Source: Candidatus Geocrenenecus huangii | GTDB taxonomy: Archaea; Thermoproteota; Nitrososphaeria_A; Caldarchaeales; Wolframiiraptoraceae | Assembly (NCBI GenBank): GCA_023268155.1 | Contig: JALNKM010000006.1 | Coordinates: forward strand, 1 to 64,000 | Reading direction: 5' to 3' | Length of the DNA: 64,000 bases | Notes under the pieces: model-generated | What the model was told of the DNA's origin: nothing | Database searches by the model: none | The model's input: the letters and a program-made list of their open reading frames with translations, nothing else | Shown: piece by piece, positions 1,889-23,473 of the stretch | How the letters are laid out: every line of letters starts with the position of its first letter | Position numbering within the stretch: the stretch's first letter is position 1 | Program-made: the position numbers and the translations under genes

Positions 1889-3193
1889 TTATTGTTTTAC
1901 TATATTTTTTGCAAATTCTTCTGTTGCTTGTATTAGTTTTTCTATGTCTTCTATTGTGTGGGCCGATGAGATGAAGAATTGGGGGTTTTCATATGTTAAA
2001 GCAATTATCCTGTTCTCTAATAGATGCTTGAAGTATTTTCTTGATTTTTCTTTATCCTTCATTGTTTGAGCCGTCTTTACATCCCTAGGTCTGACAGGCG
2101 TGAAGTGTACCCCTACAAGTGAGCCAATACCGGTAGTGTAGCCTAACCCAAGCTTCTCTAATATTTCTCCAATATTCTTTCTTAGCTTTTCTCCGAGATT
2201 GTCTAGGTAAGTGTATATCTCGGGTCTTCTCTCTAATTCTGAAAGGAGAGTGTATCCAGCTACTGTCATGAGCATATTGGCTGTGAATGTCCCGCCCTGG
2301 AAGACTCTTTCGTGGTATTCTCTATGTTTTGTTTGGTCGAGTAGCTCCATAAACTCGTTTCTTCCTCCAAACGCTCCTACCGCGAATTCTCCTCCTCCAA
2401 CTATCTTGCCTAGTGTCGTTATGTCAGGCATAACGTTATATATCTTCTGAGCTCCTCCGGCCGATAGCCTGAAACCTGTTATCACTTCATCGAATATAAG
2501 TAATGCATTCTTACGGTCACATATCTCTCTGAGACCCTTCAAGAATTCTACATCAGCAGGTATCATTCCCCCCGCTCCTGCGACTGGCTCAACGATAATT
2601 CCTGCGATTTCAATCTTCCCGACTGCTTTTTCTACTCTTTCTAGGTCATTATATGGTAAGACCATTGTATCTCCTATTGCTTCACTAGTTAGACCTGCAC
2701 ATACTTTATCATAGGGAGGGGATACAGCGACATGCAGTGCATCGTATCCGCCATGCCAGTTTCCTTCAAATTTCACGATAACTGTTTTCCTAGTATATGC
2801 TCTGGCAAGCCTTACTGCATACATGTTTGCTTCCGTTCCACTATTCGTAAATCTAACTTTATCTATGCTTGGAACCATTCTAGAGATCTGTCTTGCGAGA
2901 TTTATCTCCCATTCATGTGGTAAACCAACATGTATACCGTACTCGATCTGTCTATTGATAGCTTCCATGACGGGCGGATATTTGTGGCCCATGAGTTTTG
3001 CGCCGTGACCGATCCAGTAATCAGTATACTCGTTTCCATCAACATCGACTAGTTTCTGTGCATAAGCTTTATAGACATAGAAAGGATAAGGCTCGAAGTA
3101 TCTAATAGAGTAGGTTACCCCGCCTGGCAGATATTGTTTAGCTTTCTCAAATAATTCTCGAGATCTAGGAGTTGAAGATTCATATGTTGTCAT
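1889..3193 (-). CDS. Class III PLP aminotransferase, glutamate-1-semialdehyde aminomutase family
   Basis: 434 residues, the usual length for HemL (about 430). Visible family marks are NSGTEANMYA (about 117-126, phosphate binding), FDEVITGFR (about 234-242, with the Asp that holds the pyridine nitrogen) and TTLGKIVGGG, with the Schiff-base Lys at about 263. HemL converts glutamate-1-semialdehyde to 5-aminolevulinate for tetrapyrrole synthesis. The N-terminal substrate loop (GGVTYSIRYFE) differs from the common HemL form, and no other heme genes are nearby, so it may be a HemL-like paralogue acting on another substrate. Minus-strand signals GTTTATAGG and GAGGAAGG precede the ATG. It lies 100 bases downstream of a corrinoid/iron-type ABC permease, which would fit tetrapyrrole metabolism. 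Confidence 0.8.
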   Translation of the reverse strand: MTTYESSTPRSRELFEKAKQYLPGGVTYSIRYFEPYPFYVYKAYAQKLVDVDGNEYTDYWIGHGAKLMGHKYPPVMEAINRQIEYGIHVGLPHEWEINLARQISRMVPSIDKVRFTNSGTEANMYAVRLARAYTRKTVIVKFEGNWHGGYDALHVAVSPPYDKVCAGLTSEAIGDTMVLPYNDLERVEKAVGKIEIAGIIVEPVAGAGGMIPADVEFLKGLREICDRKNALLIFDEVITGFRLSAGGAQKIYNVMPDITTLGKIVGGGEFAVGAFGGRNEFMELLDQTKHREYHERVFQGGTFTANMLMTVAGYTLLSELERRPEIYTYLDNLGEKLRKNIGEILEKLGLGYTTGIGSLVGVHFTPVRPRDVKTAQTMKDKEKSRKYFKHLLENRIIALTYENPQFFISSAHTIEDIEKLIQATEEFAKNIVKQ

Positions 3194-3293
3194 AACCTTC
3201 CTCTACTAAAGGCATATCCTATCCTATAAACATAACTATCACTGAAATCCGATGAACATATTCAGTATTCAGCTTATTTCATACATTATATCA

Positions 3294-4325
3294 CTAAGTT
3301 CTTCTGTATTTCTTGGAGAGCAGGATGAGAAAGATGGGCGCACCGATCGATGATGTTATCGCTCCTACTGGAAGCTCGGCTGGAGCTATTATCGTTCTGG
3401 CCACCATATCTGCCAAGACTAGGATAGAAGCTCCAGTAAAGATGCTTGAGGGCAAAAGTATCCGATAATCTTCGCCTGAGAGTATTCTCGATATGTGTGG
3501 AGCTATTAACCCCATGAAGCCTATTATTCCATTAAATGCTACGGAGATAGAAGTTAGAAGAGATAATGAGATTATCATTGTCTTTCTCAGAAGGGGCACA
3601 TTTACACCGAGCTGCCGTGCCTCGTCTTCTCCCAGCATCATTATATTCAACTTCCTTGCATTAAGTAAGATATAACCCACAACAGTAGCTGAGACAGAAA
3701 CCATTATGAAGAGATATCTCCAAGACGAAGTTATTAAGCTTCCGAAGAGCCAGAAGATTATGCCATAAGTCTTCCCAGCGGAGATCGTGACGACAATGGT
3801 TGTAGCTGCTGAGAATAGAAAGCTTACGGCCACGCCTGAGAGTAGGAATGCTGTGTACGTTTCACCACCTAGCCTAGAAAACATTAACGTTAACGTTAAG
3901 GCGGTTGCCGCCCCAATTAAAGCCATAGCGGGTAGAGCGTATGATGAAGAAGGTGACAAGAACGTTATCCCGAGGAGAGCTGATAAAGAGGCTGTAAAAG
4001 CTGCTCCAGATGCGATGCCGGTAACATACGGGTCTACTAATGGATTCCTGAAAATGTTCTGCATAACTGCTCCCGCAACAGATAAAGAGGCACCGATAAC
4101 AATAGCTGACACTATTCGAGGAACTCTAGTATTCATTATTAATTCGATGTTTCTCACATCTCCACGATTAAGAAGTAGATTTAAGATGTCTTCTAATCCG
4201 AATTCCGCGGTTCCATGCACTAACGATATTAGACTTAATGTTACTGTTAGTAATAACCCCACAACTATGACTAGAGTAAGCTTCTTCTTCTTTAAAGCTA
4301 GGATGGAGACCGAAATGTTGTACAT
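3294..4325 (-). CDS. FecCD/BtuC-type ABC transporter permease
   Basis: 343 residues with about nine or ten hydrophobic helices, the typical size and shape of the FecCD family. Recognisable family phrases are TRVPRIVSAIVIGASLSVAG near 68-87, RNPLVDPYVTGI (about 91-103) and the cytoplasmic coupling segment GFMGLIAPHISR (about 268-279) that contacts the ATPase. It imports an iron chelate, heme or corrinoid together with the binding protein encoded just upstream (stop at 4344, 18 bases before this start). No ATPase gene is adjacent. The matching ATPase is most likely the one at 22700-23473, which shares an operator with the binding-protein gene. Which ligand is carried cannot be told. Confidence 0.9.
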   Translation of the reverse strand: MYNISVSILALKKKKLTLVIVVGLLLTVTLSLISLVHGTAEFGLEDILNLLLNRGDVRNIELIMNTRVPRIVSAIVIGASLSVAGAVMQNIFRNPLVDPYVTGIASGAAFTASLSALLGITFLSPSSSYALPAMALIGAATALTLTLMFSRLGGETYTAFLLSGVAVSFLFSAATTIVVTISAGKTYGIIFWLFGSLITSSWRYLFIMVSVSATVVGYILLNARKLNIMMLGEDEARQLGVNVPLLRKTMIISLSLLTSISVAFNGIIGFMGLIAPHISRILSGEDYRILLPSSIFTGASILVLADMVARTIIAPAELPVGAITSSIGAPIFLILLSKKYRRT

Positions 4326-4343
4326 CTGGAACCCTTCGATACA

Positions 4344-5450
4344 TCATGCTAGGATAGAGATTGTAAATAAGTATTTAGTATATTCTTCATCAATAGTCCT
4401 CGGAATTTCTACATTGAATATCTCAGGATACAGTATCTTGGCTAGAAGTTCTACCGCTTCCCCTATTCTTGGACCAGGTCTAAGGAAGACGTTTTCAGCT
4501 TGACCGTACAGTAGGTAGACTCTATTATTCTTGACAGCGTTGACCGAGCTGAACCCGGGGATACTCATCAGCTTCTCCATTACTTCTTCAGGTTTCATAC
4601 CTATAGACATAGCGGTGACGATTATCACTTCAGGATTTCTTGTAACTATTGTTTCAGGATTCGTCATAAACCATCCATTAGAATCAACTAGAACATTATA
4701 TCCGCCTGCATACCCTATAATGTCGTTGAGGAAAGTACTGTTCCCCGCCGTCCATATAGGCTCAAGCCATATTACTGATAGTACGCTTGTCTTTGATTTT
4801 ACCTGAGTGATCTTGGATTGAACATAGTCTATCCTATCCCTTATGCTGTTGACTAGGCTCAAAGCTTTGTATTCGATATTCATTATTTTGCCTACAATCA
4901 GTATCTCTTTGTAGACATCATTCACCGTGGAAGCATCCAGGGCTACTACGGTAAGCCCTTTTTCTTCCAGTATGGGGACGATCCCTCCCTGTACCCCTGG
5001 GCTAACGAATACTATGTCAGGTCTTAGAGCTAGGATCTTTTCAATGTTCAGAGTAGTTACTCCACCGACGTTCTCTATAATGCCTTCTTCCCTGAAACGT
5101 TTAATCTCTGGTGGATAATCACTATACTCGTCTACACCCACGATATACTCTGTTAGTTCTAAGGCTGCAAGTATCTCCGTAATACTTGGAGCACAAGACA
5201 CTATTCTCTGAGGCTGCTTATCTATGGTGATATCTCTCTTCATGAAATCGATTATCTTTAAAGGGTAAGGGCTCTCAGTGATACGGGTCGTCTCAAGAGT
5301 GGTTATAGTCAATGTTTTTGTCTTCTCAATAGTCATGGAAAACGTTGTAGTTTGACCTGCTTCGCCTATAATCTGATTTGAGGCGAAATAGATGTTGAGG
5401 CCTATGCTTACAAGAAGTATTAACAACATTGCTAGAGTAGAGGTTCGCAT
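4344..5450 (-). CDS. BtuF/FepB-type substrate-binding protein, membrane anchored
   Basis: 368 residues from the ATG at 5450. An N-terminal membrane helix (about 5-24) is followed by a Thr-rich linker and a two-lobed periplasmic-binding domain that begins RIVSCAPSITEIL, a standard BtuF/FepB opening. A longer reading from 5528 adds 26 residues, but a TATA-like TTTAAATA (5473-5480, minus strand) lies about 25 bases before the 5450 ATG, so a leaderless transcript starting at or next to 5450 is more likely. A perfect palindrome (5453-5471) fills the space between TATA and start. The protein would deliver iron-siderophore, heme or corrinoid to the permease encoded downstream. No lipobox Cys is evident; the N-terminal helix serves as anchor. 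Confidence 0.88.
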   Translation of the reverse strand: MRTSTLAMLLILLVSIGLNIYFASNQIIGEAGQTTTFSMTIEKTKTLTITTLETTRITESPYPLKIIDFMKRDITIDKQPQRIVSCAPSITEILAALELTEYIVGVDEYSDYPPEIKRFREEGIIENVGGVTTLNIEKILALRPDIVFVSPGVQGGIVPILEEKGLTVVALDASTVNDVYKEILIVGKIMNIEYKALSLVNSIRDRIDYVQSKITQVKSKTSVLSVIWLEPIWTAGNSTFLNDIIGYAGGYNVLVDSNGWFMTNPETIVTRNPEVIIVTAMSIGMKPEEVMEKLMSIPGFSSVNAVKNNRVYLLYGQAENVFLRPGPRIGEAVELLAKILYPEIFNVEIPRTIDEEYTKYLFTISILA

Positions 5451-5452
5451 GT

Positions 5453-5471
5453 TGGATGGATTATCCATCCA
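5453..5471 (-). promoter_or_regulatory. Palindromic operator of ABC importer, copy 1
   Basis: On the minus strand: TGGATGGATAATCCATCCA, a perfect 8-bp inverted repeat with a 3-bp centre. It lies directly between the TATA-like box (5473-5480) and the leaderless ATG at 5450, a position where a bound protein would block initiation. The same element with one central change occurs at 22673-22691 before the ABC ATPase gene. A metal- or cofactor-sensing repressor is the natural expectation; its identity is unknown. Confidence 0.7.
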
Positions 5472-5627
5472 GTATTTAAACAAAACGTTGAATAGTGCTT
5501 GGGAATATATACTATTCACTACATTCATCCATCAACTCGAGTGGGAGGGGTAATAGGATAATTCTTAAAGATGTTTCCCTTAGTGAAAACTGGAAAACTT
5601 TAATAGAGTATCGATATACCATGTGAT

Positions 5628-5960
5628 ATGAATAGTTACATCCAGGTCTTGACGACGACTAATTCAAGAGAAAAAGCTGAAGAGATTGCTAGAAGACTTT
5701 TGGAGAAAAGACTTGCAGGATGCGTTCAGATCATTGGTCCAATTAGATCGATGTATTGGTGGAGAAACGTTATTGAAGAAGCTGAAGAATGGATTTGTTT
5801 TATCAAGACTAGGGCTGAGCTATACGATGATGTCGAGAAACTGATTAGGAGCCTGCACAGCTATGAAGTCCCAGAAATAATATCACTACCTATAACTACT
5901 GGTTACAAGAGATATCTAGAATGGCTATCGAGTGAGGTGGAAGATCGCTCAATGAGATAA
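5628..5960 (+). CDS. cutA: CutA1 family protein
   Basis: 110 residues, the full CutA length. Family features are the opening YIQVLTTTNSREKAEEIARR, the core LEKRLAGCVQI, SMYWWRN and the closing YEVPEIISLPI. CutA is a very stable trimeric ferredoxin-like protein originally linked to divalent metal tolerance; its real role is unsettled. A TATA-like TTTAATAGAG lies about 30 bases before the ATG. The gene is convergent with the HTH gene, with only three bases between their stop codons. Confidence 0.95.
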   Translation: MNSYIQVLTTTNSREKAEEIARRLLEKRLAGCVQIIGPIRSMYWWRNVIEEAEEWICFIKTRAELYDDVEKLIRSLHSYEVPEIISLPITTGYKRYLEWLSSEVEDRSMR

Positions 5961-5963
5961 TGG

Positions 5964-6467
5964 TTATGCTTTCTCAACCTTCTCAATAATTTCTTTCATA
6001 GAGTTCTTGATCTCGGAAAGCAACGATTCCAGTCTATCAGCTCTCTTCTTTTCTTCTTCCAGTCTAGCTTTAACTTCTTCAAGCTCGACCGTAGTTAAGT
6101 CTCTCACCGGTCTAACTTGTATCTGTGGAAACTCTATTCTTACACCTTCTCTCTGAAACTTCTCTAGAGTCTGCCTTACTAGTTGACCTGCCTTAGTCTT
6201 CCCGGTGAGGTGACTCCTTATCGTCGCTTCGCTTCTACCAAGGTCTTCAGCTATCTGGCTCACCGTCATCTTAGCTCTTTCTCTAGCTATTGCCGCTGCA
6301 GCTACGGCGAGTGAGTCTACCCAAGTTAATCTCTCGGCAGGGTTTCTTAATTCTTCTAAGACTTCTGGTCTAAACATTGTTCCTACTAGAAGTGCGTACT
6401 CGAGTTTGTGGATCTGTTCTCTACCGATGGGAGATAGGGGTATCTCTTCACTCACGTATACCACCAC
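5964..6467 (-). CDS. HTH protein with C-terminal coiled coil, partner of KaiC-like ATPase
   Basis: 167 residues. A helix-turn-helix is visible around 66-90 ([21 protein letters not shown]), preceded by a helical region with [13 protein letters not shown]. The last 40 residues (about 124-167) are charged and heptad-like, a coiled coil likely to mediate pairing. The start overlaps the end of the KaiC-like gene by 20 bases, so the two are translationally coupled. Such ATPase/HTH pairs recur in archaea and are thought to act in signalling or transcription control. Direct targets cannot be inferred here. Confidence 0.75.
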
Positions 6468-22546: not shown

Positions 22547-22672
22547 AGCTCAATAAGTAAACAAGTTCTCTAACCTAGGCTATTTCAATTTATATAGATG
22601 TAGATAAGTAGCATCAACTACGTCATTTATAACACATATTAATCTTTCTTATCTTATCGGTGAATGTTTATA

Positions 22673-22691
22673 TGGATGGATAAACCATCCA
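22673..22691 (+). promoter_or_regulatory. Palindromic operator of ABC importer, copy 2
   Basis: TGGATGGATAAACCATCCA differs at one central base from the minus-strand element at 5453-5471. It follows a TATA-like TTTATAT (22667-22673) and ends eight bases before the ATG at 22700. The geometry is the same as for copy 1, and both genes encode parts of one class of ABC importer, so a common regulator is inferred. Confidence 0.7.
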
Positions 22692-22699
22692 TAGCTGAA

Positions 22700-23473
22700 A
22701 TGATAAGTGTAGAGAAGCTATCTTTTAGCTACGGCGATTTACAAGTTCTCGAGAATATTTCATTCGACCTATATTACGGTGAATTCGTTGGTGTAATAGG
22801 ACCTAATGGATCAGGCAAGACGACCTTACTGAAATGTCTCTGCAGACTTCTTAAACCCTTTGGTGCAGTATACATAGACGGTGAAGAAATCTCCAGAATA
22901 GACTTCAACAAATTATCTAGAAAAATCTCCTACACATCATCAGAGTTGGACTCATCAATAGATGGGTTAACAGTATTCGAGCTTGTTTCGAGTGGTAGGA
23001 CCCCATACATGAAGGGTATCTGGTGGGAGAGCGGAGAAGACGAGAGGATCATATTCGACTCGATAAGGATAATAGGTCTAGAAGATAAAGTAAACAGGAG
23101 AATAGGAGAACTAAGTAGTGGAGAGAAGCAGAGAGCCAAAATCGCTAGGTTGCTTAGTCAAACACCTGAAATATTTCTGGTAGATGAGCCTACGGTTCAC
23201 TTAGACTTAAAACATCAAATAGAGATAATGAATATTCTCAAAAGCTTAAAGTTGAAGAAGAAGATCGTGGTCGCCGTATTCCATGATCTAAATCTGGCAT
23301 CTCTTTACGCTGACAGAATAATCGTGTTAAAGAAGGGTCAGATATCTGCGATAGGTAGGCCAGCAGACGTTCTTAATGAAGACATTCTTAGAGATGTATA
23401 CGGGGTAGACGTCAAAATACTTCATACAGGCTTATATGGGACTCCGATAATAGTGCCTATGCCGAGTATATGA
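22700..23473 (+). CDS. ABC transporter ATP-binding protein, FepC/BtuD type
   Basis: 257 residues from the ATG at 22700, about 30 bases after the TATA-like TTTATAT. The longer frame from 22664 would start before the predicted transcript. It has Walker A GPNGSGKTT, Q-loop, signature LSSGEKQRAKIARLL, Walker B IFLVDEPTVHLDL and the switch His in VFHDLNLA. It powers import of an iron chelate, heme or corrinoid. No permease is adjacent; the shared palindrome points to the permease and binding protein at 3294-5450 as its partners. Its stop is 21 bases from the convergent pus10 stop. Confidence 0.9.
   Translation: MISVEKLSFSYGDLQVLENISFDLYYGEFVGVIGPNGSGKTTLLKCLCRLLKPFGAVYIDGEEISRIDFNKLSRKISYTSSELDSSIDGLTVFELVSSGRTPYMKGIWWESGEDERIIFDSIRIIGLEDKVNRRIGELSSGEKQRAKIARLLSQTPEIFLVDEPTVHLDLKHQIEIMNILKSLKLKKKIVVAVFHDLNLASLYADRIIVLKKGQISAIGRPADVLNEDILRDVYGVDVKILHTGLYGTPIIVPMPSI

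Follow-up and report, generated by a model that had tools for sequence, protein, structure and literature searches.

A repeated 19-bp palindrome before a split BtuCDF-type importer in Candidatus Geocrenenecus huangii is a likely operator of an archaeal corrinoid regulon, with a DUF4443 protein as its predicted reader

The window analysed here is a stretch of 64,000 nucleotides from Candidatus Geocrenenecus huangii (contig JALNKM010000006.1, positions 1 to 64,000). It carries two copies of a 19-bp palindrome. Each copy has a TATA box on one side and, on the other, the start codon of a gene for part of an ABC importer. The features are as follows.

1889..3193, minus strand: class III aminotransferase, GSAM-like, 100 nt past btuC on the same strand (PF00202; TIGR00713 at 388 bits, under its cut-off)
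3294..4325, minus strand: BtuC/FecCD permease, next after btuF (PF01032, 2.2e-87; top NCBIfam model BtuC, under its cut-off)
4344..5450, minus strand: BtuF-like substrate-binding protein, leaderless start 2 nt past operator 1 (PF01497, 1.2e-33; PRK03379, a BtuF model, 5.8e-25)
5453..5471, minus strand: operator 1, TGGATGGATAATCCATCCA (from the sequence and a genome pattern search; kept in sister species)
5473..5480, minus strand: TATA box TTTAAATA adjoining operator 1 (from the sequence; an A/T-rich box abuts the site in aligned promoters)
22667..22673, plus strand: TATA box TTTATAT, sharing the first base of operator 2 (from the sequence)
22673..22691, plus strand: operator 2, TGGATGGATAAACCATCCA (from the sequence and a genome pattern search; kept in L073 and L075)
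22700..23473, plus strand: BtuD/FecE-type ATPase, start 8 nt past operator 2 (PF00005, 5.9e-30; FecE-type models)

The two operators are identical at 18 of 19 positions, and in both the 7-bp arms, TGGATGG and CCATCCA, are perfect and enclose a 5-bp centre. On the minus strand the TATA box is followed by operator 1, 2 nt and the ATG at 5450; on the plus strand TTTATAT is followed by operator 2, 8 nt and the ATG at 22700. An in-frame ATG upstream, at 22664, is unlikely to be the start of the ATPase, as it sits inside the TATA box, and the homologues in L073 and L075, which likewise lie behind an operator, start at the position equivalent to 22700. The space between a TATA box and a leaderless start is a usual spot for archaeal repressors that block polymerase recruitment.

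With a binding protein, a FecCD permease and an ATPase (PF01497, PF01032, PF00005), the genes behind the operators meet the criteria for a Type II (BtuCDF/FecBCD) ABC importer. The substrate is less directly indicated. BtuC is the top model for the permease, and the binding protein matches BtuF (PDB 1n2z) at 4e-16 while heme and iron binders score higher; cobalamin as the substrate is an inference from the regulon context described below. The GSAM-like aminotransferase may possibly be an operon member together with btuF and btuC.

A pattern search of the whole window found no further copy with fewer than three mismatches; at up to three mismatches there were six matches, against 1.9 expected. 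Across the 1.70-Mb genome as a whole there are three exact copies of the arms, compared with 0.003 expected from composition, so there is one more copy beyond the window, at C12:211805. A one-mismatch match elsewhere (L004), which precedes a sugar-nucleotidyltransferase-like gene, is probably due to chance, and the two-mismatch matches that we inspected lie mostly within long open frames.

In two sister species of the same genus (G002 and G003) the same two importer genes are also split, and each is preceded by the operator. In a three-species alignment the operator is invariant at 18 of 19 positions before btuF and at 15 of 19 before btuD, as against only 9 and 5, respectively, of the 40 bases to its left. 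More widely, 37 of 61 relatives carry the operator at up to one mismatch, whereas a reversed control pattern is found in 2 of 61. These findings bear on a preliminary description of the window, made from sequence alone. Its claims that the two 19-mers are palindromic and agree at 18 of 19 positions, that both lie between a TATA-like box and a leaderless start, and that both genes behind them are parts of a FecCD/BtuF-type importer all held when the sequence was re-read and family models were applied. Its statement that the pieces of the importer are 17 kb apart held only in part, as the ATPase gene alone is distant and the permease gene adjoins the binding-protein gene. No third copy lies in the window, as claimed, yet there is one more elsewhere in the genome. 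Two outcomes that would have refuted the idea were not seen: the genome holds three copies rather than many unrelated ones, and the operator is kept wherever the genes were seen to be kept in the genus. The proposal that one operator joins the two parts of the importer has strong support, since two sister species keep the element in front of both genes.

The btuF-btuC pair occupies a slot between the GSAM-like aminotransferase gene, which marks the slot by synteny in sister species, and cutA. In the window, G002 and G003 the slot is filled by BtuF-BtuC, whereas in G001 and G004 an ECF S-component (ECF-S) gene and a DUF4430 gene occupy it behind the same operator. The exchange is seen when window positions 1889-6467 are compared with L071, L074 and L183. 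Thus, two unrelated importers have been swapped in place behind one operator.

The third genomic copy precedes a frame of 70-84 codons, before a decayed ECF-S/DUF4430 operon with NrdD-NrdG downstream:

C12:211480-211823 of the window's own genome (L016 9480-9823), minus strand: decayed fusion of an ECF-S gene start with DUF4430, operator intact, upstream of nrdD-nrdG (from nucleotide identity to sister species)

The first stretch of this fusion is 72% identical over 116 bp to the start region of the ECF-S gene of a sister species, and the next part is 70% identical over 221 bp to the DUF4430 gene; the part between is deleted and the frame is broken. We take it to be what remains, in the window's genome, of the other type of importer. 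As the operator here now stands before a pseudogene, about 340 nt from NrdD, control of NrdD in this species is no more than likely. The relic promoter may possibly now drive NrdD, which is inferred and not shown.

We extended these observations with a scan of all prokaryotic species (one genome per species) for the exact pattern TGGATGGATNATCCATCCA, using the DNA pattern alone. The scan returned 106 stretches, 93 archaeal and 13 bacterial, against about four matches expected by chance according to our own estimate from the size of the collection. The archaeal stretches come from Bathyarchaeia, Caldarchaeales, Nitrososphaeria, Conexivisphaerales, Methanomethylicota, Methanomassiliicoccales, Methanofastidiosia and others. 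At 67 of 95 archaeal sites the adjoining gene belongs to one of seven families: ECF S-component (30), BtuF (13), DUF4443 (13), NrdD (8), DUF4430 (7), ABC ATPase (4) and a 223-aa membrane protein (2). These counts exceed 67 because a site may carry one family on each side; the labels are similarity clusters of open frames whose representatives were named by family models. The start codon lies mostly 0-10 nt past the site for the transport and NrdD genes and mostly about 40 nt past it for DUF4443, and alignment of 83 promoters places an A/T-rich box immediately upstream of the site. At the remaining 28 of 95 archaeal sites no adjoining gene carries a regulon label; some of these sites precede mcrB (L106), and some, for example L093, are likely to be chance matches. 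A common element before B12 transport genes in many genomes, one criterion of a cobalamin regulon, is therefore met.

A second criterion is a site before a B12-independent isozyme where the B12-dependent one coexists. The operator lies directly before NrdD, the class III B12-independent ribonucleotide reductase (identity confirmed by PF13597 and TIGR02487), in G017, G018 and G019 (L081, L087 and L077) and in other lineages. These three genomes, and the window's own, also encode the class II B12-dependent NrdJ (761 bits for the latter). This criterion is thus also met, although control of NrdD is inferred from the site.

The scan also yielded several observations beside the main families. The 223-aa membrane family (L078-L083, L089, L175) has no Pfam match and stands behind the operator, often before DUF4430 as ECF-S does elsewhere; it is possibly an unrecognised B12 S-component. 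On one Bathyarchaeia contig (L168 2416-4210), sites lie beside genes for a DUF7839 HTH protein, DUF4443 and a CobD-like aminotransferase, a layout suggesting, by inference from gene placement, that B12 biosynthesis genes belong to the regulon there. In another euryarchaeal group (L244-L253) the TGGATGG arms are kept, the centres vary and often contain G/C, and there are several sites per genome, near DUF4430, DUF4443, ECF T/A-like and corrinoid-methyltransferase-like genes. An exact site is found upstream of mcrB in L096, L106, L129 and L178. Methanomassiliicoccales (L273-L278) encode a DUF4443-DUF2111 fusion, whose neighbour in L273-L275 is a dual ABC ATPase similar to component A2 of methyl-CoM reductase; a degenerate site separates the two. 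The L244 proteins we take to be methyltransferase-like, and those of L273 ATPase-like, on the basis of reading their sequences.

The company of the operator suggests a corrinoid as the signal. The ECF S-component profile has a single PDB match, 6fnp_A (ECF-CbrT), at E 1.6e-7, and ECF-CbrT is a vitamin B12 transporter (PMC5997447). The top PDB match of DUF4430 is transcobalamin-1, at an E-value of only 0.09, which is weak support. CbiC was not found in the window's own genome, so that dependence on imported corrinoid is plausible. The preliminary description had guessed at a corrinoid or at iron with a DtxR/Fur-like regulator; the first is supported by the neighbours of the site, namely the CbrT-like S-components, DUF4430 and NrdD beside NrdJ, with the ligand itself remaining an inference, and the second is not supported.

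Which protein reads the operator can be inferred from co-location only, and DUF4443 is the most probable candidate. The window's own genome encodes one such protein:

C7:164805-165428: DUF4443 protein, PF14544/PH0730-like (PF14544 94.4 bits and PF22167 42.6 bits, both above cut-off)

DUF4443 proteins consist of a winged helix-turn-helix (wHTH) and a DUF4443 domain, are usually encoded once per genome, and share a nearly invariant recognition-helix segment, GEGxVRTL. Their genes lie in or near 21 named archaeal site loci, where roughly 0.5 would be expected by our own estimate (about one gene per genome, 8-kb windows). The arrangements vary: DUF4443 may stand on the opposite side of the site from DUF4430 and be transcribed divergently, be divergent from ECF-S, or share an operon with both ECF-S and DUF4430. 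In L248, from the phylum that includes Thermococcales-like genomes, it follows DUF4430 behind a site. Of the 61 relatives, 54 encode DUF4443. Among the 37 that carry a site the figure is 35, and the two lacking it have genomes that are 76% and 81% complete. It was also found in 35 of 40 further site-bearing genomes, compared with 1 of 14 control genomes. However, 19 of 24 relatives without a strict site encode it too, which makes co-occurrence alone weak, and it is co-location that carries the argument.

The AlphaFold model of the window genome's DUF4443 protein has a pLDDT of 94.7, and its nearest PDB folds are PH0730 (2p8t) and, for the HTH, the DNA-bound CggR domain. PH0730 has the same two-domain architecture (E 5.3e-14 by sequence, 1.3e-11 by fold), but is an uncharacterised structure with no operator or ligand assigned. 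The model (m0a6ce815879e) also gave partial fold matches, over about 100 residues, to aspartyl-tRNA synthetases, possibly a hint to the origin of the effector domain. In the open-access literature that we searched, no paper names DUF4443, and PH0730 is mentioned once in passing.

We propose that a DUF4443 repressor reads the palindrome as the operator of a corrinoid (vitamin B12) regulon in archaea, and we consider this explanation likely (probability about 0.76). The sites, their placement and conservation, the downstream genes, and the co-location and co-occurrence of DUF4443 are shown by computation; the binder, the ligand and repression are inferred, and there are no binding, expression or ligand data. 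The symmetry of the operator suggests a dimer with TGGATGG half-sites. In this view, a dimeric winged-helix repressor, most probably DUF4443, would bind both half-sites when corrinoid is sufficient and, sitting between the TATA box and the leaderless start, would block polymerase recruitment or initiation. When corrinoid is scarce the repressor would release the operator, and the importer would be made: BtuF, BtuC and BtuD here, ECF-S and DUF4430 elsewhere. In several genomes release would also allow NrdD/NrdG to be made, standing in for the B12-dependent NrdJ.

The strongest alternative, which we consider unlikely, keeps the operator and the corrinoid regulon and assigns them to another repressor. 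In its favour, DUF4443 occurs in genomes without strict sites, the DUF4443 gene of the window's genome follows an ftsY-like gene, has no site of its own and is unlinked to regulon genes, and other HTH genes lie near some sites, namely that of the near-KaiC HTH (TIGR03879) in the window's family and that of DUF7839 in L168. Against it, DUF4443 borders 21 site loci in varied arrangements and in different phyla. As general regulators the two other HTH proteins were rejected. DUF7839 is absent from all 61 relatives; TIGR03879 passes its cut-off in no more than 28 of the 61, is lacking in site-bearing genomes that are nearly complete (e.g. G003, G027 and G047) and borders sites in one family only.

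Far less probable is that the signal is iron, heme or a siderophore, acting through a DtxR/Fur-type repressor on a FecBCD-type importer for iron complexes. FecCD/FecE-type models do score well, and the binding protein encoded in the window finds its top PDB matches in a protein that binds iron and in heme binders. However, the same operator stands before CbrT-like S-components and NrdD, and one euryarchaeal group has it in front of a corrinoid-methyltransferase-like gene as well; no iron-specific gene recurs among the site neighbours. Iron or heme explains neither the CbrT match, nor the placement and control of NrdD, nor the importer swap in the syntenic slot. Fe_dep_repress gave a weak HTH-level match, under cut-off, in one DUF4443 protein (L130), and none is listed for the protein of the window's genome. 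Finally, an RNA or generic promoter feature such as a leader hairpin or riboswitch, suggested by a near-perfect inverted repeat near a start codon, is all but excluded: there is no Rfam riboswitch in the window (at the gathering threshold, tRNAs only), a leaderless transcript would exclude a site that lies between TATA box and start, the exact sequence and not pairing alone is conserved, and the site, being near-symmetrical and found in divergent promoters, reads alike on both strands.

A DUF4443-read corrinoid operator would not be without precedent as a kind of regulon, since CblR, a cobalamin regulon of Thermococcales including Pyrococcus furiosus, has already been predicted, with the factor given as unknown (PMC10746257, citing RegPrecise and others). 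Like the present system it is archaeal, acts at the DNA level and concerns cobalamin genes. In Thermococcales-like genomes, palindromes of the form TGGA-N7-TCCA, for example TGGACAAATAATCCA, stand before many btuF homologues (L305-L316 and others); that they are the CblR motif is our inference. These share the outer TGGA/TCCA with the 19-mer and look like a respaced relative, but span 15 bp with 5-nt arms, as against 19 bp with 7-nt arms in the window. The TGGATGG operator itself, when looked for in Thermococcales-like genomes, was absent apart from chance-like matches; two apparent ones (L263 and L264) lie within ABC ATPase coding sequence. DUF4443 is encoded in 12 of 12 such genomes, and its presence there with a palindrome of different spacing counts against our main reading. 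Bacterial cobalamin riboswitch regulons similarly control B12-related genes and B12-independent isozymes such as MetE (PMC4428469), but there an RNA leader senses B12, whereas here we have a DNA palindrome for a predicted protein and no Rfam match. The S-component family described here aligns with CbrT along its length (ECF-CbrT, 6FNP); it differs in that it is archaeal, stands behind the operator and frequently has a DUF4430 gene after it.

A bolder reading, which we suspect is slightly more apt to prove wrong than right, takes DUF4443 as an ancient, archaea-wide family of corrinoid-sensing repressors that would include the Thermococcales CblR with its respaced operator, as well as a DUF2111-fused Methanomassiliicoccales branch controlling methyl-coenzyme M reductase genes.

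The operator, its spread and the assignment of a regulator appear to be new in the literature that we searched, mostly without subscription papers. Together they supply the exact operator sequence, a set of target genes from many uncultured lineages and the name of a regulator family whose structure is solved but unexplained; the operator may also serve as a sequence tag for unannotated archaeal B12 importers. The question can now be tested with one purified protein and one 19-bp duplex. How most archaea sense B12 appears to be unknown, with one predicted archaeal cobalamin regulon recorded without a regulator, and a DUF4443 repressor, if confirmed, would be the protein counterpart of the bacterial B12 riboswitch.
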